A DNA stretch of 64,000 nucleotides, from IMG/VR virus record IMGVR_UViG_3300032293_001310, positions 1-64,000 of that record; one strand, 5' to 3'. This stretch comes from a virus. The notes beneath the pieces were generated by a model. It was not told the origin of the DNA, did no database searches, and worked only from the letters and a program-made list of their open reading frames with translations. Positions 20,242 through 53,528 of the stretch are shown here, one piece after another (within the stretch, counting starts at the first letter, position 1; each line of letters begins with the position of its first letter). A program made the position numbers and the translations under genes.

Positions 20242-23200
20242 ATGGCAATCGAACAAAATGGAAATTATAGCCCTTCAGAACGCATCGTTTCGCCTGGTGT
20301 ATTCACCAGAGAAATAGATCAGTCGTTTCTTGCACAGGGTGTAGCAGCAATCGGCGGTGTGGTAGTCGCTCCGTTCCCAAAAGGACCGGGCTTTTCACCA
20401 ACCGTGATCAATAGTGAAGGTGACTTAACTAGCATATTCGGTGATGCAGATGGTACGCTATACGGACCAATCACTGCACAGCAATATCTTCGTCAACAAG
20501 GACAAGTAACAGTTGTTCGTGTTGGTGGTCTTTCCGGATACAACCAGAAACAGGGACTATTTGTCACCGCACTACCTGGTCAATATGCCAGATTCGTTGA
20601 AACTGGTAGTGTATCTGGATCTTTGCTGGATTCTACACTATATCCAAATTCTTCGGTAGATCACGAATTTTATATCACGGGCAGCGTTAGTGTCACTTTT
20701 GACAGTGGATACTATGAAGGAGAAACGATTGAAATTGGTACCTTGCAAGTAAAAACTTGGAAACGTACTTCCACTATGTTGTATGGAGCATCAACTGCAT
20801 CCGGAGACTGCTTGGATACATTTGTTGCAACCGCTTCATTTGAAAATACTCCAATTACTATCATTGGTTCTGCTCCATGGAACGGTGTAAAAGTTCAACA
20901 ACTCACGATACGTAGAGTACCAGGAGCATGCGACTTTGAATTGGAAATAGAAGCAATTCTTTCTGGTTCATACGGTCCATTCAATCCAAATGCATTTACT
21001 GCTGGCACAATATCCTCGGAAGATGGTTGCGGAAGCGCTTCAGCAATTCCTGCAAGAGACGAAGTTGTATTGGCGGTACTAGCAAATACAGCATACGACC
21101 GTGGCCAAAATCTATACGGATTTAGCGGATCGCTGTTGTATACATCATCCGCAGCGGCAGTTACTACGGATTTTTCTCTCGCGCTAAATACAATCTACAC
21201 CGATGGAAGTGGCAATACCGCAAGTTCGTCTTACGGTACATATCGTTTCTCGTTGGATGAAGAATCGAACAGTTACATCACCAATGTATTTGGTACCGAT
21301 CCAAAGGCTGGATTCGTTCCAGTTGCTGCCGGTCAAAAGATTGAAGCGGCCTACACATACAAGAATTTCAAGAGCCGTACAAAAACGGTGATAAATGAAA
21401 TGCTTGCGTCCGGTAGTTGGAAGATTGCAATTGCTACTCGCAACGCACTTGTGTTTGAAGACGGCATCGAACCAGCAGACGGTACTTCTACGTTCGATCT
21501 TACGAACGCATACACACCGTTCATTCGCTCACAGTTGATCGCTCCTTTCACCGGAAGTGGAGTTTCTTCTAGTGCAGCATATGATCTGTTCAAGGTTCAT
21601 ACACTAACAGACGGTACATCTGCAAATACCGCATATAAGGTTGAAATATCAAACGTTAAATCCGCAGGTTCTATACCGGGAAGTTCGTATGGGTCATTCA
21701 CATTGGCTGTTCGCAGTTATAGCGACACCGACCTGAAGCCTGTATATCTAGAACGCTTTGACAATCTAAGTTTGGATGTCAATAGCGCCAACTACATCGC
21801 TCGTCGTATCGGCGATACATACAACTATATTGACTTCAATGGTAAGATTCTGGAATTCGGAGACTTCCCACAAAAGAGTAAATATATCCGCGTCGAAATG
21901 GCTACTGCTCCATGGCCAGTAGACTCAATCCCATACGGATTTGGTCCATATGCTGCACCAGTTGGTGGAGACTTTGCCCGTCTAGGTAAGGTCACTCCAA
22001 TGCAATACTGTTCCGCGTCTGCATATTTGCTACAACCGGGCAGATATGCTTCTGGAATAGTATTCCAGCCAGCCCCTGCACAAGCCGATGATGAACTAAA
22101 GGCGCTGTATCCAAACGGCTCATCCGTTGGTCCAGAATTGGATAACAAGCAATATTTTGCTCCAATACCTCAAGGTTCTTCTGTGGGTAAGAATGTTGCG
22201 TTCGACTTGGAAACATATTGCGGAGTTTCTCCACTGTATGTCGCTTCTCAAGAAAACACAAACGTAAAGAAACGTCGCTTTGTGCTAGGATTCCAAGGCG
22301 GATTCGATGGTCAATCTCCTTCTGTTCCATTGTTGATTGGTAATGATATATTACCAACAAATCAACAAGGACTAGATTGCGCGACATCGACAAGCCGTGG
22401 TACATATGCATACAGACAAGCAATCGCTGCTCTAAGTAATGCAGATGAGTTTGATTTCAACCTCATCACAACGCCTGGTGTAAATTATCAACATCACGCA
22501 TATATATCATCAGCAATTGTTGATATGTGCGAACGCCGTGGCGATGCATTCTATATCATGGATGTTGCTCCAAACCAAAGTGCTGGTGCATCTTCCATAC
22601 AGAACGCAGTTGATCTCGCTGGTCAGTTTGACACAAACTACGCCGCGACATACTATCCTTGGGTCAAGGTAGTTGAAACAAACAGCAATAAGATTATGCC
22701 GGTTCCTCCTTCGGTCGTAATGATGAGCGTTTATGCAGCAAACGATAAGGTTGCAGCCGAATGGTTTGCTCCAGCAGGTCTAAACCGTGGTGGTATTCCA
22801 ACCGCCGTATCTGTTGCTGACAGATTGACACATACTGAACGTGACACTCTATACGAAGGTCACGTAAACCCAATCGCCGCATTTCCTGGTCAAGGTGTTG
22901 TGGCTTGGGGTCAGAAGACGCTACAACGCAATCCAAGCGCATTGGATCGCGTAAATGTTCGCCGTCTATTGATTGCGTTGAAGAAGTTCATCGCTTCTTC
23001 TTCGAGATTCCTAGTATTCGAACAGAATGTAGCAACAACCCGTCAGCGCTTCCTGAATATCGTAAATCCATATTTGGAAAGCGTACAACAACGTTCTGGC
23101 GTATATGCCTTCAAGGTTGTTATGGATGACAGCAACAATACACCTGATCTAGTTGATCGTGGTATATTGTATGGTCAAATCTATATTCAGCCAACACGTA

Positions 23201-23349: not shown

Positions 23350-23913
23350 ATGCATATACTCCTAAAAACTCTATTAAAAGAAGTAGAAGAAAAGTCTCCC
23401 TTAAAATATCAAATGTATGTGGATATGGACGGAGTTCTTGTAAATCTTGATAAAGGGTTCAAGGCAGTTTCTGGTGGATTATCTCCAAAGGAATACGAAG
23501 ATAAAAATGGTAAAAACACTTTTTGGAAAGTAGTAAATAAAAATCCCAACTTCTGGCTTGAGTTAGAACCATTACCAGATGCTAAAGTTTTGTGGGACTA
23601 TATAAAAGATACGTTTGAAGATCCTCCTGCGGTTGTGTTGAGTGCTGGACAAGGAAATAAAATAACAGAACAAAAAACTGCGTGGATACGTAAGCATATA
23701 GATCCCAGTGTCAAAGTCATCATAGCAAAATCTGGCATTAAAAAATCGGAATATATTATTGACGGCGCGGGTACTAAACTTACTCATATACTACTTGATG
23801 ATACAGACAAGAATATAACTGCTTGGGAAAATTCCGGTGAAAATAGAATTGCTATTTTACATAAAGATGCGGCGAGCAGCATAAATAAGATTAAACAGAT
23901 TGTGTCTGTATGA
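23350..23913 (+). CDS. HAD-family phosphatase, 5'-nucleotidase-like, with N-terminal tag
   Basis: 187 residues. MYVDMDGVLVNLDKGF (from residue 22) is the HAD motif I nucleophile loop, with D25 and D27; VVLSAGQGNK gives motif II (Ser), and ILLDDTDKNI the acidic motif. Best fit is the 5'(3')-deoxyribonucleotidase-like branch seen in phages, which would hydrolyse nucleoside monophosphates; the precise substrate is uncertain. The first 15 residues, MHILLKTLLKEVEEK, form a helix of the kind shared by the tagged genes at 26.6-31 kb. Coupled by ATGA to the next gene. Confidence 0.72.
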   Translation: MHILLKTLLKEVEEKSPLKYQMYVDMDGVLVNLDKGFKAVSGGLSPKEYEDKNGKNTFWKVVNKNPNFWLELEPLPDAKVLWDYIKDTFEDPPAVVLSAGQGNKITEQKTAWIRKHIDPSVKVIIAKSGIKKSEYIIDGAGTKLTHILLDDTDKNITAWENSGENRIAILHKDAASSINKIKQIVSV

Positions 23914-24158
23914 ATCACGTTTCGCTAAAATCTTTGCTGCTAAAAGAACAATTTCATGTATCCGACATGGTTATGCTTGAAAAGGCGTGCAAGGCTTTTG
24001 CAGACGTATTAATAAAAAACAATATTGTAGCACATCATCATAAAGATCTTACAGCAGCAGATACTCCTATATCTCAATATTCAGAAGATATAGCAGAAGT
24101 TGTTCGCAATGAAGTAATCAAATGGATGGATGTAGCAAACGGACGAGGTGGCAGATGA
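23910..24158 (+). CDS. Small tagged protein, function unknown
   Basis: 82 residues, starting by ATGA overlap. MNHVSLKSLLLKEQF at the start is another copy of the Leu-Lys-rich helical tag (LKE at 11-13). The rest (LEKACKAFADVLIKNNIVA, IAEVVRNEVIKWMDV) looks helical. No known motif. Expressed with the HAD protein and the nucleotidyltransferase. Confidence 0.62.
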   Translation: MNHVSLKSLLLKEQFHVSDMVMLEKACKAFADVLIKNNIVAHHHKDLTAADTPISQYSEDIAEVVRNEVIKWMDVANGRGGR

Positions 24159-25063
24159 ATTATCCTTTATACAACGACAAACTTGCTCCTATATGGAACA
24201 TCAATGAAGATGGCGCGAGACTTGATGATGAAGTAAGAAAATCGCTCATCAAGATTGCGATGGATTTTGTGCAGGATCTAAAAAAGAACCAAGATATAAA
24301 CATCAAGATCGATGACATACTTCTTATTGGTTCTATCACCAATTATAATTGGACGCCATATTCAGATATTGATCTACATATATCAACCGATTTTTCCAAA
24401 CTTGATATGAGCAAAGAAGATGCACAGGCTATGTTTGATGCGATTAAAACTGGTTGGAATAGCAAGCACGACATTGTGATGAAAAACTTTGATGTTGAGT
24501 TATATGTTGAAGATATAGGGGCAGAACAGGTGTCTGCATCGAAGTATAGCGTTCTAAGAAATGAATGGATAAAAGAACCAAAGAAAGAAAGTCCAAACTT
24601 CAATAAGTCGCTTATAAAAAAGAAGTATAAAGAATACTCAAAGAAGATAGATGACTTGATGGATGCAGACAGCGAAAAGCCGCTAAAAGATTTACTCGAA
24701 AAGATATACAAGTTTCGTCAAGCGGGATTAGATAAGGGCGGAGAACTAAGTGAAGAAAATATTGTATTCAAGATACTAAGAGCAAGGGGCAAGTTGGATA
24801 AACTAAAAGACACTATATCAGCGATTTACGACGATAAGATGAGTGTCGATGAAATCGCCATGAACAATAGTTATTATGAGAAGGATGTTCAAGACGCGGC
24901 AGATGATATATATGCGATTGCAAAAGCGTTAAAAGTATATCCAGATATTGAACCATATATCAAAAAGATATCATTAAAATACAAGAAGTATTCGGACGAT
25001 GTGCATATAGACATCGCAAGGGCATTTTCAAAGCTTAGAAAACAACAAATAAAAACATCTTGA
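24155..25063 (+). CDS. Nucleotidyltransferase-fold protein
   Basis: I start at 24155, where the ATG overlaps the previous stop, instead of 24122. 302 residues. ILLIGSITNYNWTPYSDIDL (residues 56-75) is the polymerase-beta-type signature: Gly-Ser (59-60), then Asp-x-Asp (D71, D73) ten residues later, with a third acidic position possible in NFDVELYVED. Such proteins transfer nucleotides to protein, RNA or small molecules; the substrate is not evident. The C-terminal 170 residues are Lys/Glu-rich helices. Its stop codon lies inside the -35 box of the next promoter. Confidence 0.7.
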   Translation: MNYPLYNDKLAPIWNINEDGARLDDEVRKSLIKIAMDFVQDLKKNQDINIKIDDILLIGSITNYNWTPYSDIDLHISTDFSKLDMSKEDAQAMFDAIKTGWNSKHDIVMKNFDVELYVEDIGAEQVSASKYSVLRNEWIKEPKKESPNFNKSLIKKKYKEYSKKIDDLMDADSEKPLKDLLEKIYKFRQAGLDKGGELSEENIVFKILRARGKLDKLKDTISAIYDDKMSVDEIAMNNSYYEKDVQDAADDIYAIAKALKVYPDIEPYIKKISLKYKKYSDDVHIDIARAFSKLRKQQIKTS

Positions 25064-25087
25064 CATAATATATCGGCGTGATAATAT
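25060..25087 (+). promoter_or_regulatory. Sigma70-like promoter TTGACA-16-TAATAT
   Basis: -35 at 25060-25065 and -10 at 25082-25087. The expected transcription start, 7 nt past the -10, is 25094, the A of the next ATG. Confidence 0.65.
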
Positions 25088-25093
25088 GTCGGT

Positions 25094-25783
25094 ATGCTAA
25101 AGAATATTAAGTTTGCCCGGTTTGGCGGGCTTAGTTCAGTCAATCAAAAGGGATATGATTCGAACTGTGATGGCTATCATTCTCCTCCCGCCAAGCGTGG
25201 CTTTTATGCGTTTCTTTGGCCGCATTATGAGTTCTTTCTTCTCAGCGGTGGATTATGGACAAACTATCCTTGGTCAATAGGCACCAAGTTCAGTTACTTG
25301 AAAGACGCAAAGGGTAATATCATTGACGAAAATCATCCTGATCATGAATACTTTTCCAGCACAGGAAAGTATTGGAGCATTCCCACCAAAGAATGGTATT
25401 TTCATCAGAAGAAACATCCTGAATATGAAGACCCCGAATATGATGCTAAGTTGGAGGCACATTGTATTGATTGGGAAACAAATCACGGAGATAAGCCCAA
25501 GTGGGTGTTGGTCCAAAAGCCTTCGCCCAGAATCTTTGAGTACAAAGGAAATATCTGGCATCATTTGACCTGCTATCTTGGACCTTCTGGTGCACTGAAG
25601 CAGAAAGGCGGTTGGACTCTTTCGCCGTTTGACGAATACGCAAAAGCATTACAAAAAAACATGCACGCTGGTCGCAGGACACAGTGCGAATACAGTTCCA
25701 AAAAAGGACTACCGAAGTCCAACAAAAATCCTTATGTGGGAATATCCAAGGATCATTTGGAAGTTTTTATTGAGAAAATTTGA
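25094..25783 (+). CDS. Uncharacterised protein with its own early-type promoter
   Basis: 229 residues, soluble, Trp/Tyr/His rich (GFYAFLWPHYEFFLLSGG, WYFHQKKHPEYEDPEYD, GNIWHHLTCYLGPSG). I do not recognise a family. It is expressed from an apparent sigma70 promoter while lying between sheath and tube genes, so its timing probably differs from its neighbours; an early host- or defence-directed function is possible but unproven. The mRNA would be leaderless. Confidence 0.65.
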   Translation: MLKNIKFARFGGLSSVNQKGYDSNCDGYHSPPAKRGFYAFLWPHYEFFLLSGGLWTNYPWSIGTKFSYLKDAKGNIIDENHPDHEYFSSTGKYWSIPTKEWYFHQKKHPEYEDPEYDAKLEAHCIDWETNHGDKPKWVLVQKPSPRIFEYKGNIWHHLTCYLGPSGALKQKGGWTLSPFDEYAKALQKNMHAGRRTQCEYSSKKGLPKSNKNPYVGISKDHLEVFIEKI

Positions 25784-25795
25784 GTAGTTGGTGTA

Positions 25796-25803
25796 TATTT
25801 ATA
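25796..25803 (+). promoter_or_regulatory. Late-type box TATTTATA, distal copy before the tail tube
   Basis: First of two exact copies in the 143-bp gap before the tail tube (second at 25886). It lies directly against an ATG (25804) opening a 38-codon ORF that I do not call as a gene. Confidence 0.45.
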
Positions 25804-25885
25804 ATGTATATAAAAAGTGAGCATTTGTTGGAATACCTTGTTAAAAAAAAGTACCAAAAAATGCAGCATTTTATATTTTGTGCTA

Positions 25886-25893
25886 TATTTATA
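25886..25893 (+). promoter_or_regulatory. Late-type promoter box TATTTATA for the tail tube
   Basis: Exact box 33 bp before the tube ATG, the same spacing as before the sheath. The overlapping TATAAATA (25890-25897) also matches the T4 late box on the coding strand. Confidence 0.6.
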
Positions 25894-25926
25894 AATAGAA
25901 AAAGAACACTTAACCAATAAAATACT

Positions 25927-26415
25927 ATGGCAGAACTACTAGACCAGAATCAAATATTTTTTACGGCCTTCGAGCCCAAGGTGCAGAACCGTTTCATCAT
26001 GAACATCGATGGAATTCCTGCATACCTGATCAAAGCCGCAGCACGTCCGAACATTAACGTCGGAACAATCACATTGGATCACATTAACTTGAAGCGTAAA
26101 CTCAAGGGTAAGAGTGAATGGCAAGATATTTCAATTACATTGTACGACCCAATCGTTCCATCTGCTGCACAGGCTGCTATGGAATGGGTACGTCTTGCAC
26201 ACGAGTCTGTTACCGGTCGTAACGGCTATGCTGATATGTACAAGAAGGATATTCAAATTCAAGTTCTTGGTCCTGTTGGCGACGTTGTTGAAAAATGGGA
26301 TATCAAAGGTGCGTTTCCCAACTCAGTGAACTTCCAAACCATGGATTGGGCAAATGCAGAAGCAATGACAGTTGAAATAACACTGTCTATGGATTATTGC
26401 ATCCTACAGTTCTAA
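25927..26415 (+). CDS. Tail tube protein (T4 gp19-like)
   Basis: 162 residues, matching T4 gp19 in length (163). NRFIMNIDGIPAYLIKAAA, the GTITLDHINLKRKLKGKSEW strand pair and a final EITLSMDYCILQF are typical of the tube fold shared with Hcp and the gpV family. Hexamers stack inside the sheath to form the DNA conduit. No clear Shine-Dalgarno; the leader has CTTAACCAATAAAATACT. Codon choice is more G+C rich than in the fibre array, as for the sheath, consistent with high expression. Confidence 0.92.
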   Translation: MAELLDQNQIFFTAFEPKVQNRFIMNIDGIPAYLIKAAARPNINVGTITLDHINLKRKLKGKSEWQDISITLYDPIVPSAAQAAMEWVRLAHESVTGRNGYADMYKKDIQIQVLGPVGDVVEKWDIKGAFPNSVNFQTMDWANAEAMTVEITLSMDYCILQF

Positions 26416-26441
26416 TATTATTATTATAGTGTTCTGTATTA

Positions 26442-26471
26442 AACCCTCACCATAAAAAGTGGGGGTTTTTT
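26442..26471 (+). terminator. Intrinsic terminator after the tail tube
   Basis: Stem AACCCTCAC (26442-26450) with GTGGGGGTT (26459-26467), one G-U pair, 8-nt loop, T tract to 26471. Confidence 0.88.
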
Positions 26472-26479
26472 ATTTTATC

Positions 26480-26508
26480 TTGACAAGTTTTCGTCTACCC
26501 CCTATAAC
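26480..26508 (+). promoter_or_regulatory. Sigma70-like promoter TTGACA-17-TATAAC
   Basis: -35 at 26480-26485, -10 at 26503-26508, just after the terminator. The leader to 26590 contains the late box at 26566, so the following operon may be read both early and late. Confidence 0.55.
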
Positions 26509-26565
26509 CCCGGGTATTACCTGAGTGAAACACAACTATATCATACTTTTTTATAGTATAGTTGA

Positions 26566-26573
26566 TATTTATA
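26566..26573 (+). promoter_or_regulatory. Late-type promoter box TATTTATA for the tagged-protein operon
   Basis: Exact box 16 bp before the ATG of the first of four operonic tagged genes. Confidence 0.55.
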
Positions 26574-26589
26574 TATACTTAAAAATATT

Positions 26590-27270
26590 ATGAATAAATC
26601 AGAACTAAAATCTATCATACGTGAAGTAGTTGAGGCAGTAATGAAAGACGACTTTGCTCCATTGGGCGTAGCACAGGAATGGAGATTGGATGAAGCCGGC
26701 CCTCCGGGATTTCCAAAAAAATTAAGAAAGCAGTTGATTACAAAGTATAAAAAGAAATATCCGAATGATGAAAAGCGTGCGATGAAGGCAGCATTTGGTA
26801 CAATGTGGAAGATCTTTTATGCCAAGAAAAAAGGAAACAAAAAAGTAAACGAAATGTGGGAAGCGTGTGAACGTCAAGAGATTGCGGAAATTTCTTTGAC
26901 AGAAAATAATATCAACGAAGCCATACCAGACGAAGATCCAAATGATCCATTGTATGTTGAGTATCTAAGTGATAGACAGGGCGAAGACCCGTTTATGATG
27001 AACGGAACTAAGTGGCAATATGTTAATGCAAAATATCCAAATGGCAAAAAAGATCTTGGTGTGTATTCCTTCGCCGAAGATATGGTTTATGGATACAACG
27101 CTTTTAGAACCAAATTTAATTTAAAAGAAGAAAAAAATGTTAAGGCAAAAAAGCAAGAGCATCCGCACGATGAAACGGACATGAGTAACCCAGAAGAAAA
27201 ACGTGAAGTTGAGTTGGCAAAAAAAGCAAGAGATGCATCTGAAGAAATCTTAAAAATGCACGGAAAATAA
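26590..27270 (+). CDS. Tagged protein with GFPKKL/KAAFGTMWKIF module
   Basis: 226 residues. MNKSELKSIIREVVEAVMK is the clearest copy of the shared N-terminal helix and contains a (V/I)xE-Ala site at E15. Residues 57-100 (PPGFPKKLRKQL, MKAAFGTMWKIFY) form a small module I have seen repeated in giant aquatic myovirus proteins without known function. The rest is charged and probably loosely structured (HPHDETDMSNPEEKREVELA). No enzyme motif. Ends TAATG, overlapping the next start by 1 bp. A capsid-internal role is proposed in the findings. Confidence 0.65.
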   Translation: MNKSELKSIIREVVEAVMKDDFAPLGVAQEWRLDEAGPPGFPKKLRKQLITKYKKKYPNDEKRAMKAAFGTMWKIFYAKKKGNKKVNEMWEACERQEIAEISLTENNINEAIPDEDPNDPLYVEYLSDRQGEDPFMMNGTKWQYVNAKYPNGKKDLGVYSFAEDMVYGYNAFRTKFNLKEEKNVKAKKQEHPHDETDMSNPEEKREVELAKKARDASEEILKMHGK

Positions 27271-27833
27271 TGAATAAGTCTACACTCAAAGAAGTAATTC
27301 AAAATGTGGTTGCTCATAAACTGGCGGAAACCAACGGTGATGCGTCAAAGTATGGATATATTATTTCCGGAAAAGACACCAACGATCCGCACCTTCAGTT
27401 AATAGGTTATGGTAATATGCCAAAAAGTTATTGGCAAAAAAAACTTGACGGATACGCCGACGAGTTGAAGAAGAGAATTAAAGCCGAAGACTGGAATGCG
27501 GCGGTATACTTTATGAAGCAAAGTAGTGTATTCAATCTCGCAGTCAATATGATGAACGAAATATACGAAAAAGATCTTAATGAACTTGATACCACACTCG
27601 ATTCATCTGCTGCTGAAACTGGATTGACTGACGCGGATAAAAAAGAACTAGAGAATCTAAAATCTCAGAGTGACAAACTAACTGCTAATATTAAAAAAAT
27701 AGAAGGCGATATGGCTAAATTGCAACAAACCATTCAGCCAAAGATACAACGGGCAGAACGTGCAAAAGCAAAATTACAAAAGCAACAGTCCGATGTTATT
27801 CGTAAGCAGCAGTCCATACAAGACAGGGCTTGA
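27270..27833 (+). CDS. Tagged coiled-coil protein
   Basis: 187 residues. The tag MNKSTLKEVIQNVVAHKLAE carries an LAE at 18-20. Residues 85-187 are a long coiled coil (ENLKSQSDKLTANIKKIEGD, QRAERAKAKLQKQQSD), Lys/Gln rich. The middle (YWQKKLDGYADELKKRI) is also helical. No catalytic motif. Starts inside the TAATG overlap, so it is made together with the protein before it. Confidence 0.63.
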   Translation: MNKSTLKEVIQNVVAHKLAETNGDASKYGYIISGKDTNDPHLQLIGYGNMPKSYWQKKLDGYADELKKRIKAEDWNAAVYFMKQSSVFNLAVNMMNEIYEKDLNELDTTLDSSAAETGLTDADKKELENLKSQSDKLTANIKKIEGDMAKLQQTIQPKIQRAERAKAKLQKQQSDVIRKQQSIQDRA

Positions 27834-27839
27834 TATGTT

Positions 27840-29624
27840 ATGGACAATATCGAGAAACAACTTCTGGAACTCGAAGAAAACCTACATAAATGGTTCAAGG
27901 AGAAATGGGTAAGATTCGGACCAGATGGTAAGATACGTGGTCAATGTGCCAGAGAAAAATCAAGCGAAGGTAAGCCAAAATGTCGTCCACTAAAGTCTGC
28001 ACAAGCGATGGGAAAGAAAGGTAGAGCAACTGCTGCACGCAGAAAGAGACGTGAAGACCCAAATCCAGATCGTAGCGGCAAAGCAAAAAATGTAAAAACC
28101 GAGGCTGATAAGATGGATGAACTAAAGTGCTGGAAGGGATACTCACGAGTACGTGGTGTGCCTGCTGGTGCACCAGGTAGTTGTAAAAAGAAAACAGAGG
28201 AATCTATAACAGAATCTTCCAATTTCTCTATTGAACAACTGGCAACCATTAGCGATGAAGCACTGGATCAAGCATATGGATATGGTCGCAGCACGACGGG
28301 TAATACTTTTGGTTGGCAGGCTAATGTAATGTCTGCAACATATGCTAAAGAAGTAATTGATATGGGCGTCACTGACATCGAAAAAATTGCGAATGCTATT
28401 CACAAAGGATGGAATGTCACGGCAAAAAAGTTTGTTGAAAATCCGGATCAATTTGATGATACTGAAAAACTACGCCAGTCTGGTAAACTGGATAATAAGA
28501 TACAACAAAGAAAAAAATTGATGAATATTGATTACAACCAACTAAGCGATGCCGAAAAAGAAAAGGATCGTGTTGTAGCTCGTGCTTTGTTGCAATCGTT
28601 GAAAAAAGAATTGAGCGAATCTATAACACCAGAAACCATACATAAACTTGCAGACGACTTAGGTATTGAGTGGGACAACGAGCCAAGCTTTCTTGAACTT
28701 ACAAAAGAGTTGACGGGTAAAGAACACTTGGACGATTTAAATCAAGCAGAGTTGATGAAAGTTAAAAACCATTTAGAAAAACAAAATATAGCAGAAACAG
28801 AGGAATTTACTATGGATAATGTAAATGAAAATCATATGTGCCCTATTTGTGGTGGAGAACTTGTGTCAGAACTATTGATGAACGAAAAGAAAGATGCTTG
28901 TTATTATAAAGTTAAATCGCGCTATAAAGTGTGGCCAAGTGCATATGCTTCTGGTGCATTGGTAAAATGCCGTAAAAAAGGAGCAAAGAACTGGGGAACC
29001 AAGTCAGAAGGCGTTGAAGAACTTGATGAAAAATGGAGTGAAAAATATAAGCGTAGCATTGATTGTAGCCAGCCAAAAGGATTCAGTCAAAAAGCACATT
29101 GCCAAGGAAGAAAAAAGAACGAGGAAACACTTATGAAAGAAGAACAACTAAAGAATATAATCAGAGAAATGGTAGATGAACTGTATAAAGAACAGACCCA
29201 GATGCAGGATGAATGTTGGGAATGTTATGAAGCCGCAATGCAGGAAGGTACCGATGAAGTTTGGGAAGAATGTTATCGCAAGACAAATTGGAACATGGTA
29301 CCAGAAGGTGAAGAACACACCTGCGAAGGTGACACATTTTATGAAGTATACGGGGACCAGAGGTATGAAGCCGATGTAATTGAAGAAGCAGAATATCGTG
29401 GTCGTAAAGTAAAACTCGGAAAGCCAATGAGAGGCGATGTCAAGAAGTTTAAAGTGTATGTTAGAAAACCAAACGGTAAAGTTGTAAAAGTCAATTTCGG
29501 TGACAAGAAGATGCGCATTAAGAAGAGTAATCCGAAACGCCGCAAGAGTTTTAGAGCAAGGCATAATTGTAAAAATCCTGGCCCAAGATGGAAAGCACGT
29601 TATTGGAGTTGCAGAAAGTGGTAA
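27840..29624 (+). CDS. Mosaic of small basic/Cys modules, possibly several proteins in one frame
   Basis: 594 residues built of separate short modules. KWVRFGPDGKIRGQC then KPKCRPLKSAQAMGKKGRA (15-65) resembles the DUF5872-type phage domain. Then: CWKGYSRVRGVPAGAPGSC (about 97-115); a helical ELTKELTGKEHLDDLNQ unit (about 280-296); MCPICGGEL; CYYKVKSRYKVWPSAYASGA (about 350-370); KYKRSIDCSQPKGFSQKAHC (about 400-420); an internal tag MKEEQLKNIIREMVDELYK (from 432); and a strongly basic end with KSFRARHNCK and RYWSCRKW. The end module recurs near head genes of aquatic T4-like phages. ATGs at 28812 and 29133 are in frame and preceded by AGAGGA and GAGGAA, so internal starts are likely. Basic charge suggests DNA contact in the head. 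Confidence 0.68.
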   Translation: MDNIEKQLLELEENLHKWFKEKWVRFGPDGKIRGQCAREKSSEGKPKCRPLKSAQAMGKKGRATAARRKRREDPNPDRSGKAKNVKTEADKMDELKCWKGYSRVRGVPAGAPGSCKKKTEESITESSNFSIEQLATISDEALDQAYGYGRSTTGNTFGWQANVMSATYAKEVIDMGVTDIEKIANAIHKGWNVTAKKFVENPDQFDDTEKLRQSGKLDNKIQQRKKLMNIDYNQLSDAEKEKDRVVARALLQSLKKELSESITPETIHKLADDLGIEWDNEPSFLELTKELTGKEHLDDLNQAELMKVKNHLEKQNIAETEEFTMDNVNENHMCPICGGELVSELLMNEKKDACYYKVKSRYKVWPSAYASGALVKCRKKGAKNWGTKSEGVEELDEKWSEKYKRSIDCSQPKGFSQKAHCQGRKKNEETLMKEEQLKNIIREMVDELYKEQTQMQDECWECYEAAMQEGTDEVWEECYRKTNWNMVPEGEEHTCEGDTFYEVYGDQRYEADVIEEAEYRGRKVKLGKPMRGDVKKFKVYVRKPNGKVVKVNFGDKKMRIKKSNPKRRKSFRARHNCKNPGPRWKARYWSCRKW

Positions 29625-29642
29625 AAATTAGATACTGTTAAT

Positions 29643-30827
29643 ATGAAAAAAACCGAACTAAAACAATTAATAAAAGAAGCGGTCGTCAAAGTATTGTACG
29701 AACAAACGCTACCGCCCGGTATAAGTCCCGATGCCGTGATGACTTTGGATCAGTTTATTAAAGGGTCGATTGAAGAAGCAGAAGGAGATTTTCTTGGTGC
29801 AAGAACCAGACCCATTTCTCCAGAAGAAATGCAGGCGTATCTAGATCGCGTTAAGAGAAAAGAAAAAACCGCAGGCGACAAATATAATCTTCCATATATC
29901 CACGGAAGTAACATAAAAATAAAAAACGAAGAAGGAAAAACTTACGACCAAGAGAGGTTGAAGGATGCCATAAAAACTCGTCCATCACAAATATTAAAAC
30001 AGAATGCCAAGATGGCAAAGAGTTCAGGTCCAAACACTGTGTTTTTTGATATCGGGTTGCCAGCATTAAAGGGGTTGGCAGTAAATGAAAAAACCAACGA
30101 GTTTATAGTCGTTGACACATGTCCGGGCGCAGGACAGTGTAAAATATATTGTTATGCAATGAAAGGTGGATATGTTCAGTGGAAAAGCGTATCGTTATCA
30201 CAAACTCGACTATTGAACTTTCTAATTAACGATCCTCAAGGATTTAAATCTCAATTTCAATCCGAATTGGAGTCTAAAGCAAATTCTGCATTAAAACGCG
30301 GTAAAAAAGTGTTAGTGAGATGGCACGATGCTGGAGACTTCTTTAGTCCACAGTATTTGAACATGGCATTTGATATTGCCCGCAGTTTTCCCGAAATTGA
30401 ATTTTATGCTTACACAAAAATGGCAGATGTTGCTCAGAGCGATAAACCTGCAAATTTTAAGATGAATTTTTCTATGGGGGCAAAACCCGAACAAGAAAAG
30501 CAGATAGATTTTGATAAGACCAAACATTCTACGGTGATACCAAAACCGATGTTTGACAAATATATTTCAAAAAATGAAAAAGGAAAAGCGGTCAGAGACA
30601 AAAAAGGAAGAATGCAATTTAAAGACGACGACGAACTAAATTCTTTTAAGCAAGATTTGGCCGCAAAGTATAGAGTACCAGTTGATAGTATTCTTACATA
30701 TGACGAGATGCTAGATACACCAGAATCCGATGAGCAGAACAAGTACAACGTAATCGTTCGTCCCGGCGATGGAGATGTAAGTGCAAGTCGCGGAGATGTT
30801 AAGGGAACATATTTATTAATCCACTAA
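29643..30827 (+). CDS. Tagged Gene-product-88-like protein
   Basis: 394 residues. The first 21, MKKTELKQLIKEAVVKVLYE, are the tag, with IKE-Ala at 10-13. The core has DTCPGAGQCKIYCYAMKGG (C160, C166, C170) and VRWHDAGDFFSPQYL (R226, H228, D229, D232). This Cys-cluster plus RxHxxGDF pair is the mark of the phage family Gene product 88 (GP88), whose biochemical function is not established; a metal or Fe-S centre is plausible from the cysteines. Insertions of Lys-rich sequence follow. The tag and a 75-residue leader are additions to the usual domain. Confidence 0.7.
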   Translation: MKKTELKQLIKEAVVKVLYEQTLPPGISPDAVMTLDQFIKGSIEEAEGDFLGARTRPISPEEMQAYLDRVKRKEKTAGDKYNLPYIHGSNIKIKNEEGKTYDQERLKDAIKTRPSQILKQNAKMAKSSGPNTVFFDIGLPALKGLAVNEKTNEFIVVDTCPGAGQCKIYCYAMKGGYVQWKSVSLSQTRLLNFLINDPQGFKSQFQSELESKANSALKRGKKVLVRWHDAGDFFSPQYLNMAFDIARSFPEIEFYAYTKMADVAQSDKPANFKMNFSMGAKPEQEKQIDFDKTKHSTVIPKPMFDKYISKNEKGKAVRDKKGRMQFKDDDELNSFKQDLAAKYRVPVDSILTYDEMLDTPESDEQNKYNVIVRPGDGDVSASRGDVKGTYLLIH

Positions 30828-30833
30828 ATTATT

Positions 30834-31478
30834 ATGAAAAAATCAGAACTAAAAACATTAATAAAAACCATAGTCGTAGAGGCTATTTCAGTAAAAGATG
30901 AACTTAGACGCAAGTCCGCAGATGAAAGTTTAAACAAGACGCCATCGAAGATGAACGTAAAAGAAGAAATCTTGAAAATGATTCGTGAAGAAATTCACGA
31001 GATGTCACGTACTGCCGGTTCTATCGGTAATAAATTTAAAGTACAAGATCCAAATTCTCCAACTGGATGGGTAGCCAGTGGCCACCCAAAAACACCAGAT
31101 GGAACGCCAGTACCACCGCCGGGTAAAGCCGCTGGCATCAGCGGTTCCAAACCGACGGGCACCCCCGATTCAGACGAAGACGAAGGAGATGACGAGGATT
31201 CTGGACCAGTCGCCCCAGTCCAAGCAAACTCAAAGGTGTCTATTGTCGTTGATGGAGATGAACTTCCCGCCAAGTTGGATATGAATAAAGTAAAAGGCCC
31301 GATAATGGGCTATCTGAAGTCTGTTCTTAGCGGGTCAAACATAATTATGTACAAAGCCCACCCGTCCGTACAAGAAAAACTAGATCAATTGAGCGATCTA
31401 TATACTGACGATAAGTTACCTCTTGATGCAAAATTGCAACTTTCTATACAGAAAGACGGCACTATATCTGCAATTTGA
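30834..31478 (+). CDS. Double-tagged protein with acidic linker
   Basis: 214 residues. It begins MKKSELKTLIKTIVVEAIS, and at residue 40 a second copy appears, MNVKEEILKMIREEIHEMS, whose ATG (30951) could also act as a start. Residues 60-130 are Gly/Pro/Asp/Glu rich and probably disordered (PDSDEDEGDDEDSGP). The C-terminal 85 residues form a small alpha/beta domain (KVSIVVDGDELPAKLD, LQLSIQKDGTISAI). No recognised family. Last gene of the tagged operon, followed by a terminator. Confidence 0.62.
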   Translation: MKKSELKTLIKTIVVEAISVKDELRRKSADESLNKTPSKMNVKEEILKMIREEIHEMSRTAGSIGNKFKVQDPNSPTGWVASGHPKTPDGTPVPPPGKAAGISGSKPTGTPDSDEDEGDDEDSGPVAPVQANSKVSIVVDGDELPAKLDMNKVKGPIMGYLKSVLSGSNIIMYKAHPSVQEKLDQLSDLYTDDKLPLDAKLQLSIQKDGTISAI

Positions 31479-31591: not shown

Positions 31592-32437
31592 ATGGATAAT
31601 ACAATACCAGTTACAAAGCAGAATACATTGACGACATCGTTGGTACAGCCCGCCGAATCTACTAAGCAATCGGCACCAACTATAACAGTAAAACTACCAA
31701 CAAAAGGTTATTTTTATCCCACAAATCATCCATTGTCGAGCGGTACAATTGAACTATATCATGTCACTGCTAAACACGAAGACATTCTTAGTAACAGCAA
31801 TCTTCTAAAGAAAGGAACAGTATTGGATGAATTTTTGAAAGCGTTGATTGCTACACCAGGCGTTGCATTAAACGATATTTTTATTGGAGACAAAAACGCA
31901 TTGTTCATAGAGTCGAGAAAAAATGCATACGGTGAAACATATACCACAAAAATAAAGTGTCCGGAGTGCGGCGAAGAATCTAACGTTGATATAGATATTT
32001 CCGCTGTGGGATCAAGGGCGTTTCCATTTGAAAACTATGTTCGCGGAGAAAATAAGTTTACATTCTTGCTTCCATCGTCGAAAAAGACAGTAACGTGGGG
32101 ATTGTTAACGCACAAGGATGAAAGTGATATAGATCAGGAATTAAAAGCACTTGCTAAATTGGGAACCAGCACATCCGCACCAGAAGTTACCACCCGACTG
32201 AAATATACAATAAAGGCGATAGACGGCGAAACGGACCGCGCAAAGATCAAGAATTTTATTGATACACAAATGGTTGCAAAAGATAGTTTGGCATTCAGGC
32301 GTCACGTTAGAGAAACCACTCCGGATTTAGATATGATGTTTGACTTTAATTGTCCAAAATGTGGGCACACTCAAAAGATGCCGATTCCTTTGGGAGCAAA
32401 CTTTTTCTGGCCAAACTTGACTGACAGAGATATGTGA
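31592..32437 (+). CDS. Baseplate hub assembly protein, T4 gp26-like, zinc-ribbon type
   Basis: 281 residues. KLPTKGYFYPTNHPLSSG, the TAKHEDILSNSNLLKKG helix and the NAYGETYTTKIKCPECG segment match the T4 baseplate family that includes gp26, needed for assembly of the central hub. CPEC (C123, C126) and CPKC (C254, C257) can form one C4 zinc site joining the two ends of the domain. It precedes a paralogue by GTGA overlap and the tape measure, the expected neighbourhood. T4 gp26 is about 208 residues, so this version is longer. Confidence 0.7.
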   Translation: MDNTIPVTKQNTLTTSLVQPAESTKQSAPTITVKLPTKGYFYPTNHPLSSGTIELYHVTAKHEDILSNSNLLKKGTVLDEFLKALIATPGVALNDIFIGDKNALFIESRKNAYGETYTTKIKCPECGEESNVDIDISAVGSRAFPFENYVRGENKFTFLLPSSKKTVTWGLLTHKDESDIDQELKALAKLGTSTSAPEVTTRLKYTIKAIDGETDRAKIKNFIDTQMVAKDSLAFRRHVRETTPDLDMMFDFNCPKCGHTQKMPIPLGANFFWPNLTDRDM

Positions 32438-43860: not shown

Positions 43861-44727
43861 ATGAAAAATATTTCTGATTTGATTGATTATGTAATTTCGG
43901 AGGCATCGTTGGATGCTAGAATATCCGACGGTATGCTGAACCTCAGTAATACTGAGCATATAGAAGTTGTAGCAGAAACAATGCATAAAATATGCGACGA
44001 TGACCAGTTGGTAACAGAATTCATAAAAACCATTTTGAACGAAGGGAAATATCCAGACCGTCAGGCATATAATAAAGAGGGTTGGTTGGTTACGTTTCCA
44101 TCCAAAGAGTATCGTGACGCGGCAATAAAAAAGGGAACACATGCCATATCAGACCCAACTCATGGTAGAGGTGGAATGAACTTGTACTATAAACGTAGGG
44201 GGAAACAGAAACGCCAAACTCAGCAAGCAACCACGGCGGTACAACCTCAAACTCAGCCGCAGAAAGCGCCAACTGGATCGTCCACATCGACAGGAGATGT
44301 AACAGCGACAACAGGACCAGACGCGCCAGTTGATCAACCTACCACACCTTCTAGTGCAGGTAAATCGGAAGTACCAGCAACCCCCGTCGGTCAACCGCCA
44401 AAAACACCAGAGAAAGTGCCCGCTATTACCCAGCCATCACCAACAGTCTCTTCCGAAAAACCAGATGATACTTCTACACCGGAAGCACCAAAACCGGTCG
44501 ATGTGCCCGCCGTAGATGTTCCTGTAGTAACAACTCCACCGGAACAATATTCTTCTATATCGAAGAAATTCGCGGACAAAAAAGGATGGAAAGCGGAACC
44601 ATATGGCGAATATAGAGACGCCGAAGGTAATACTGTAGCCGTAGTTGGATTGAGCGGAGAAGTTGTTCCCGTTAAGAGTGTTGACAGAGATGAATATAAA
44701 CTCTTTGCAGAAAAGAACATGATGTAA
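43861..44727 (+). CDS. Tagged protein with Pro/Thr-rich linker
   Basis: 288 residues. MKNISDLIDYVISEASLDA is a tag-like helix with ISE-Ala at 13-15, the T4-type prohead-protease context. Residues 60-115 (KYPDRQAYNKEGWLVTFPS, then EYRDAAIKKGTH) match a small module I recognise from head-linked phage proteins of unknown role. Residues 120-235 are a Pro/Thr/Ser/Gln linker. The C-terminus (KKFADKKGWKAEPYGEY, AVVGLSGEVVPVKSV) is a small beta domain. It is surrounded by replication genes but served by late-type boxes. Confidence 0.62.
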   Translation: MKNISDLIDYVISEASLDARISDGMLNLSNTEHIEVVAETMHKICDDDQLVTEFIKTILNEGKYPDRQAYNKEGWLVTFPSKEYRDAAIKKGTHAISDPTHGRGGMNLYYKRRGKQKRQTQQATTAVQPQTQPQKAPTGSSTSTGDVTATTGPDAPVDQPTTPSSAGKSEVPATPVGQPPKTPEKVPAITQPSPTVSSEKPDDTSTPEAPKPVDVPAVDVPVVTTPPEQYSSISKKFADKKGWKAEPYGEYRDAEGNTVAVVGLSGEVVPVKSVDRDEYKLFAEKNMM

Positions 44728-52820: not shown

Positions 52821-53528
52821 ATGAATCGTGAACTTCTAAAAAAAGCCATCAAAAAGTTAGTATTACAAGAAATCACCAACAATCAGTTTGGTACACCTAT
52901 TCATTCAGATAAGAAGGATTTGACTGGCGAAAAAGCACTGACCAATGCAATGGGCAAGGACGCCAACGTAATGAAAATTCGTGGCACAGGAAAAACCGCA
53001 GGAGTGAAGGGGAATCAAGAAGTTCAACTAAGCAAAAACTGCGATCATTGCTATGATGTAGTATCTGTCACCAACGAGTCAGAAAGAAAGATTGCCCGTG
53101 GTATTTCGCTTGAAGCGGCAATGGAACTTGTAAAGCAGCACGCCGAAAGTTCAGACAAGACATATGTTCAAAGAGCATATGACAAGAGCCTCAAAGGATT
53201 CGGCAAGAAGCCAGCCAAAAAAGAAGAAGCCAATGAAGCCGACAAAATGGACGATGCCGACGAAGAAACGCAACTTGATATTGCCGATGATACTACTGAA
53301 AAGGCGGACGTTAAAGCGGACAAAGACACTTCTCCTATCAATAAAGACATTGCTCCTGCTCTCGGTGGAAATATTGTTGACAAGATTGAAAGGATTGTAG
53401 ATAAGGTATTAAAAGATAAAGCAGACGCCAAGTCGGCATATCTAAAACGAGACAAAAGTACAGAGAGCCCAGACAAACTATCTGTAAAACTAAAAGACAC
53501 TCCTGCTCTAAAAGAAAAAAAACCATAA
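52821..53528 (+). CDS. Tagged charged protein, unknown
   Basis: 235 residues. MNRELLKKAIKKLVLQEIT is a tag-like helix with LQE at 15-17. Residues 65-120 contain KNCDHCYDVVSVTNESERKI (a CxxC) and an ISLEAAMELVKQHAES helix, possibly a small folded domain. The rest is Lys/Asp/Glu rich and probably disordered (ADKMDDADEETQLDIADDTT). No enzyme motif. Late-type box upstream and 1-bp spacing to the next gene. Confidence 0.6.
   Translation: MNRELLKKAIKKLVLQEITNNQFGTPIHSDKKDLTGEKALTNAMGKDANVMKIRGTGKTAGVKGNQEVQLSKNCDHCYDVVSVTNESERKIARGISLEAAMELVKQHAESSDKTYVQRAYDKSLKGFGKKPAKKEEANEADKMDDADEETQLDIADDTTEKADVKADKDTSPINKDIAPALGGNIVDKIERIVDKVLKDKADAKSAYLKRDKSTESPDKLSVKLKDTPALKEKKP

Follow-up and report, generated by a model that had tools for sequence, protein, structure and literature searches.

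A short N-terminal signal that directs unrelated proteins to the phage head is known from phage T4, whose internal proteins IPI, IPII and IPIII reportedly share the capsid-targeting sequence of Mullaney and Black. Both IPII and IPIII start with MKTYQEFIAE/A (a slash marks a cleavage site, and in what follows a candidate one), and genetic work on IPIII traces targeting to residues 4 and 7, with 8 and 10 serving in processing (PMC9026906). Here we analyse a comparable element, the start MKKSELKxLIxE (hereafter the tag), in a 64,000-base stretch of viral DNA that we call the window (bases 1-64000 of the 81,403-base IMG/VR virus record IMGVR_UViG_3300032293_001310). Like the T4 internal proteins, the tagged proteins combine a short N-terminal signal on unrelated cargo with an hxxh(I/L)xE register (h, hydrophobic), a cleavage-type junction and an S77 (gp21-type) prohead protease in the lineage. 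Unlike the T4 signal, the tag has two extra residues ahead of its first hydrophobic position, a near-uniform MKKSELK beginning and often a second LxE at residues 18-20, and it sits on more than 100 putative cargo families rather than a handful.

Other head-borne or protease-processed proteins resemble the tagged set in part. T4 Alt, a head-packaged ADP-ribosyltransferase, has a parallel in some tagged cargo that looks enzymatic, including a weak Tox-ART-HYD1 match, but Alt itself starts with MELITELFDED. The gp21-processed prohead core proteins gp67/gp68 and scaffold protein gp22 of T4 are matched by position in several relatives, where genes in the equivalent place have tag-like starts; the T4 proteins differ in being structural rather than cargo. 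In phage P1 the N-terminal 30 residues of DarB suffice for head loading of cargo (PMC9024508), whereas the P1 Dar proteins have no common consensus. The giant phages SPN3US and phiKZ have N-terminal propeptides cut after Glu by a prohead protease (PMC5694885), but these occur on few proteins, several exceed 100 residues, and the SPN3US motif is AxE. Polyvalent proteins of phages and conjugative elements are modular, multi-domain and thought to be packaged and injected (PMC5512222); the portion of that work considered here describes domain architectures and does not give a common address tag. A literature search of incomplete coverage found no description of an MKKSELKxLIxE tag, which would be best filed as an unusually uniform and widespread form of the known T4 capsid-targeting system and not as a new principle. 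New are its uniformity, its presence on more than 100 cargo families from uncultivated phages, a second LxE site and the occurrence of several tag classes in one phage.

A near-identical tag on unrelated proteins

Within the window, MKKSELKxLIxE recurs nearly identically at the start of four plus-strand genes, and two further copies are internal. Using a 19-position matrix built only from tagged proteins of other contigs, we scored every gene start and found four strong N-terminal matches in the record, against 0.03 expected from internal windows. These are MNKSELKSIIREVVEAVMKD (26590..26649, score 38.1) on a 226-residue modular protein (26590-27270), MNKSTLKEVIQNVVAHKLAE (27270..27329, score 17.2) on a coiled-coil protein (27270-27833), MKKTELKQLIKEAVVKVLYE (29643..29702, score 39.1) on a GP88-family protein (29643-30827, profile match E = 6.5e-33) and MKKSELKTLIKTIVVEAISV (30834..30893, score 29.9) on an acidic protein (30834-31478). 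The acidic protein carries a second, internal copy, MNVKEEILKMIREEIHEMSR (30951..31010, score 15.8), and the other internal copy, MKEEQLKNIIREMVDELYKEQ (29133..29195, score 19.2), lies in a 594-residue modular protein on the same strand (27840..29624, phrog_727, weak DUF5872) whose C-terminal module is found elsewhere in N-terminally tagged proteins. The original prediction had read a single motif at ten coordinates, all of which translate as given; the reading holds for the four strong starts, and both internal copies score high, but it fails at 23350, 23910 and 43861, where the starts are short and T4-like, and at 52821, where the start is intermediate. An AlphaFold model of the GP88-family protein (predicted local distance difference test score 67, moderate) places, at low confidence, a helix over residues 3-21 and a poorly ordered stretch after it; its payload had no significant match in the Protein Data Bank by model and no solved relative by sequence.

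The tag extends well beyond this record. When M(K/N)K(S/T)(E/Q)LKx..(K/R)E was searched for as degenerate DNA, at least 110 IMG/VR stretches matched, nearly all exactly at open-reading-frame starts, whereas bacterial and archaeal contigs totalling 264 Gb had 11 matches to the pattern. Inspection of the gene starts identified five of these 11 as true tags on phage-like contigs in metagenome bins, and most of the others as chance matches within or at cellular genes such as SecA; over these 264 Gb the tag is virtually absent from cellular genomes. The observation is confirmed, with more tags than the original prediction described. Among cultured phages, no match was returned by tblastn with the tag peptide, a query too short for the purpose, or by a search with one full-length tagged protein.

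The payloads are unrelated, as had been proposed: clustering the payloads of 287 tagged proteins, taken from all loci, gave 119 clusters. Across 98 aligned representatives mean column identity is 6%, with only M1, L6 and I10 conserved at 90% or more. Synonymous codons at the tag vary freely, and all six serine codons occur at position 4 and all six leucine codons at position 6, which indicates that selection acts on the peptide.

T4 register and candidate cleavage sites

The tag shares the hxxh(I/L)xE spacing of T4 IPIII, whose Y4, F7, I8 and E10 correspond to tag residues 6, 9, 10 and 12. In shorter tags, for example MIKLTQLLKE/A (L095), even the residue numbers are exactly those of T4. In S77-positive genomes an N-terminal hxxh(I/L)xE is found on 95 of 1688 genes, 3.8 times the internal rate, compared with 20 of 898 genes and 1.5 times the internal rate in S77-negative genomes (p = 3e-5). 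The T4 genome, used as a control, has it on 13 of 252 genes, including ipII, ipIII, gp68 and gp24; it misses ipI and Alt, so the motif is neither complete nor specific. A plain N-terminal (I/L)xE is uninformative, being enriched 1.26-fold in S77-positive and 1.23-fold in S77-negative contigs, which bears out an earlier caution that cleavage motifs alone are weak evidence. The frequency of E12 is likewise not evidence, because the search pattern imposed it. Independently of that pattern, (I/L/V/M)xE peaks at residue 20, where it occurs in 34% of families, compared with about 2% farther along.

Candidate sites at the junction of tag and payload are conserved within families. The 226-residue protein has LDE/A at residues 33-35 (26686..26694, plus strand), with E35 conserved at 90% or more, and in its family [LIM]xE immediately precedes an xPP payload in 12 of 13 aligned sequences, the distance of the junction Glu from the start varying from 20 to 35 residues. 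In the coiled-coil protein the candidate site is LAE/T at residues 18-20 (plus strand); (L/M)xE is kept there by all listed relatives, only some of which have Glu at residue 12, often replaced by N or S. The GP88-family protein has IKE/A and LYE/Q as candidate sites, and its homologues carry, in the same place, either the long tag or short tags (SIIKLKQLLFE/S, HIKLKSILAE/S). The (I/L)xE originally placed 10-17 residues in is conserved among relatives of the 23350, 23910 and 52821 proteins, but proteins of the 27270 family conserve the site at 18-20, not one at 10-12.

Shorter, intermediate and additional start classes

Matrix scores are strongly negative at 23350, 23910 and 43861 and reach 3.1 at 52821, and on this account we do not regard these plus-strand starts as copies of the canonical tag. 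Their cores are LLKE, LLLKE and ISE in the shorter starts and LVLQE in the intermediate one, and those at 23350 and 43861 fit the shorter motif hxxh(I/L)xE. The first, MHILLKTLLKE/V (23350..23382), opens a 5'-deoxynucleotidase of the HAD type (23350-23913, phrog_2643, E = 1.8e-22), whose relatives retain a start with (L/I)xE, before the catalytic DMDGV. MNHVSLKSLLLKE/Q (23910..23948) lies on an 82-residue protein with relatives that conserve SLLLxE or SLILxE, and MKNISDLIDYVISE/A (43861..43902) on a 288-residue protein encoded upstream of the SSB gene, some orthologues of which have an (L/I)xE start (IITE/A, ILLE/S) and others do not. The intermediate tag, MNRELLKKAIKKLVLQE/I (52821..52871), belongs to a 235-residue protein; its relatives conserve LVLQE, LIIQE or LVLKE, and the tag is doubled in tandem in L098:9687.

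Several classes can stand side by side in one phage, namely LKxLIKE, MKKQILSEQFxRMQKLAGIITE and FDLKKFLVENKLT. The second of these, as MKKQILSEQFxRMQKLAGIITES and ending in (I/L)xE, was seen at L234:13675 and L232:25061 (both in Flavobacterium phage immuto) and in L421-L427, and exact starts of this class occur in seven IMG/VR stretches. A third start class, M(E/A)xxF(D/N)L(K/R)(K/S)FL(V/T)EN(K/R)LTxN, is found on four immuto genes (L232:1803 and L234:5806, 19631 and 20632), three of them upstream of the terminase.

Association with the prohead protease and head genes

We compared tag contigs with neutral contigs chosen by a neutral AT-rich start pattern. The S77 profile matched 23 of 37 tag contigs longer than 30 kb but only 5 of 32 neutral contigs (Fisher p = 9e-5), and 13 of 15 against 4 of 9 among contigs longer than 60 kb, the contigs being partly non-independent (G076, G077 and G078 look like one virus). 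The tag matrix had zero matches in ten S77-negative contigs (989 genes). The 14 tag contigs that are S77-negative contain no HK97-type capsid gene (PF05065) and, except for one partial gp23, no gp23, and for this reason look like fragments without a head module. A near relative of the window's phage, G005 (tail tube 90% identical), has the S77 protease. This closest protease-bearing relative (L085-L089) appears to have many broken reading frames, probably sequencing errors, and its genes were left out of the counts on that account. In record G055 (L332, L333; about 122.0-123.5 kb) the S77 match falls into two pieces about 1 kb apart in one 559-residue frame, as if an intein or some other in-frame insertion interrupted a prohead protease.

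Tags are also close to head genes. Of the 23 S77-positive tag contigs, 12 have their nearest tag no more than 2 kb from S77, against 2.3 expected, and L333 has three consecutive tagged genes ahead of the protease. At L320:2639-3406, likewise upstream of the protease, a tagged gene starts with MKKSELKQIIKEELKKALQKEMSTTGDVAGFETPNAF and has a TxGxxxGYxTPxAF signature common to relatives' genes between portal and protease; it would be of a gp67/gp68-position type, homology to T4 gp67/68 not being established. Genes near the protease in G023 and G037, both relatives of the window, start with MSKDNARQLLRELVQEVLDE, MKLITIYKSIINED, MIKLTQLLKEA, MIKLTDLLNES and MIKLSDILNEG. The cultured phage immuto has the tag or the short motif on 13 of 31 head-module genes compared with 8 of 167 genes elsewhere (p = 2.5e-7).

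Genomic setting and cargo

By gene content the window belongs to a T4-like, contractile-tailed phage, of which the record is a fragment. A tail sheath gene lies at 20242, the T4 gp19-like tail tube gene (25927..26415, plus strand, phrog_4542, E = 1.1e-27), which served as the query for gathering relatives, lies upstream of the tagged block, and two baseplate-hub protein genes follow at 31592 and 32434. The window also encodes UvsX, a DnaB-type helicase, ribonucleotide reductase and RIIA, and past its end lie DNA polymerase, clamp and clamp-loader-like genes, assigned by reading. Between 3096 and 15648 about 12 adjacent genes share the repeated motif GLVLYLDAANxKSYPGSGTxWxDLSxNGNxG and appear to be LamG-like paralogues of the tail-fibre or receptor kind, arrayed in tandem.

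Profile searches name a function for only a few cargo families, among them the 5'-deoxynucleotidase, GP88 and a serine hydrolase. Short-tagged proteins in relatives include a SAM-lyase-family protein (Mel-JY01) and, close to the head module, cytidylyltransferase/acetyltransferase proteins. Large cytidylyltransferase-like proteins with starts resembling a capsid-targeting sequence occur near the head module in three phages (L228:11243, L095:12864 and L342:17631), L095:12864 also having an acetyltransferase domain and L342:17631 being assigned by reading only. The Tox-ART-HYD1 (ADP-ribosyltransferase) match, on a long-tagged protein of L145, has E = 6e-4 and falls under the Pfam cut-off; defence-system profiles gave only marginal single matches. 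T4 IPI is an injected restriction inhibitor (PMC3012670) and T4 Alt an injected ADP-ribosyltransferase (PMC9026906), and by analogy the tagged cargoes may act in the next host.

Discussion

We conclude that MKKSELKxLIxE is probably a T4-type capsid-targeting sequence, whose cargo would be loaded into the head, relieved of the tag by a gp21-type protease and ejected with the DNA. This interpretation, already put forward in the original prediction, gains support from the residue register, the protease association and the gene neighbourhood, as well as from junction conservation, the swapping of tags and the absence of the tag from cells and protease-negative contigs. Late in infection, L6 and L9 of the N-terminal amphipathic helix would attach a tagged protein to the prohead scaffold core, and the shell would form around it. 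The S77 protease would then remove the tag after (I/L)xE, at residue 12, at the junction (L/M)xE or at both, and the freed protein would enter the next host with the DNA.

The position of the window's tagged block between tail tube and baseplate-hub genes, and of one tagged immuto gene ahead of baseplate genes, would also suit a helix that docks proteins on a different late structure of the virion (neck, baseplate or the lumen of the tail tube) instead of marking head cargo. We consider this unlikely, since tags flank the prohead protease in other phages, the residue register fits the T4 head signal, and the conserved junction (I/L)xE has no known role in tail assembly. Equally improbable in our view is a portable self-associating or regulatory helix without a packaging role that spread by recombination among late genes: it would account for the Lys/Glu-rich, amphipathic character of the tag and for its tandem and internal copies, but does not explain why the tag stands at N-termini, keeps the T4 register, has (L/I)xE at the junction and is linked to S77. 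In AT-rich phages the opening codons are close to uniform, as would be expected if conservation acted on nucleotides, for instance because late genes had a recombination site or a translation enhancer across those codons; given the codon variation at positions 4 and 6, the internal tag copies and reversed-pattern controls that gave zero, we rejected this as very unlikely. Short Leu/Glu motifs are common, and the similar ratios for plain (I/L)xE would be in keeping with a start shared by chance or with tagged genes that are paralogues, but the full tag is more than 100-fold above expectation in the window's record and the 119 payload clusters have no detectable downstream similarity, so that both chance and simple paralogy were rejected as scarcely credible.

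Several observations weigh against head packaging. S77 is already present in four of the nine neutral contigs longer than 60 kb, and because it also marks the T4-like lineage, its association with the tag could by itself reflect shared ancestry. Three S77-positive neutral contigs have no canonical tag; G086, a neutral S77-positive contig, has many short tags. Once the family directly beside S77 is dropped, proximity to the protease is weak (5 of 15, p = 0.013). Neither an S77 protease nor a gp23 capsid gene was found in the window's 81-kb record, which places the head module outside this fragment and leaves the protease link for the window's own phage resting on relatives. The residue-12 Glu is absent from the tags at 27270 and 30834, and the tag helix, though amphipathic on average, does not stand out in this respect. 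We found no virion mass spectrometry or packaging assay of tagged proteins and no virion proteomics of a tagged isolate.

It is quite possible, if short of probable, that this near-uniform, portable targeting sequence marks a very large set of head-packaged effectors, so far unrecognised, in T4-like phages from the environment, and that the several distinct tag classes side by side in one phage perhaps address different parts of the core. If capsid targeting is indeed the function of the tag, the first 20 residues would tell which of the numerous unknown phage proteins ride in the head and enter the host first, and anti-defence and host-takeover factors would be expected among them, with T4 IPI and Alt as precedents. 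The tag would then also offer a ready-made loading signal for protein delivery in non-model phages, and the packaged proteome of uncultivated phages would become legible from sequence.

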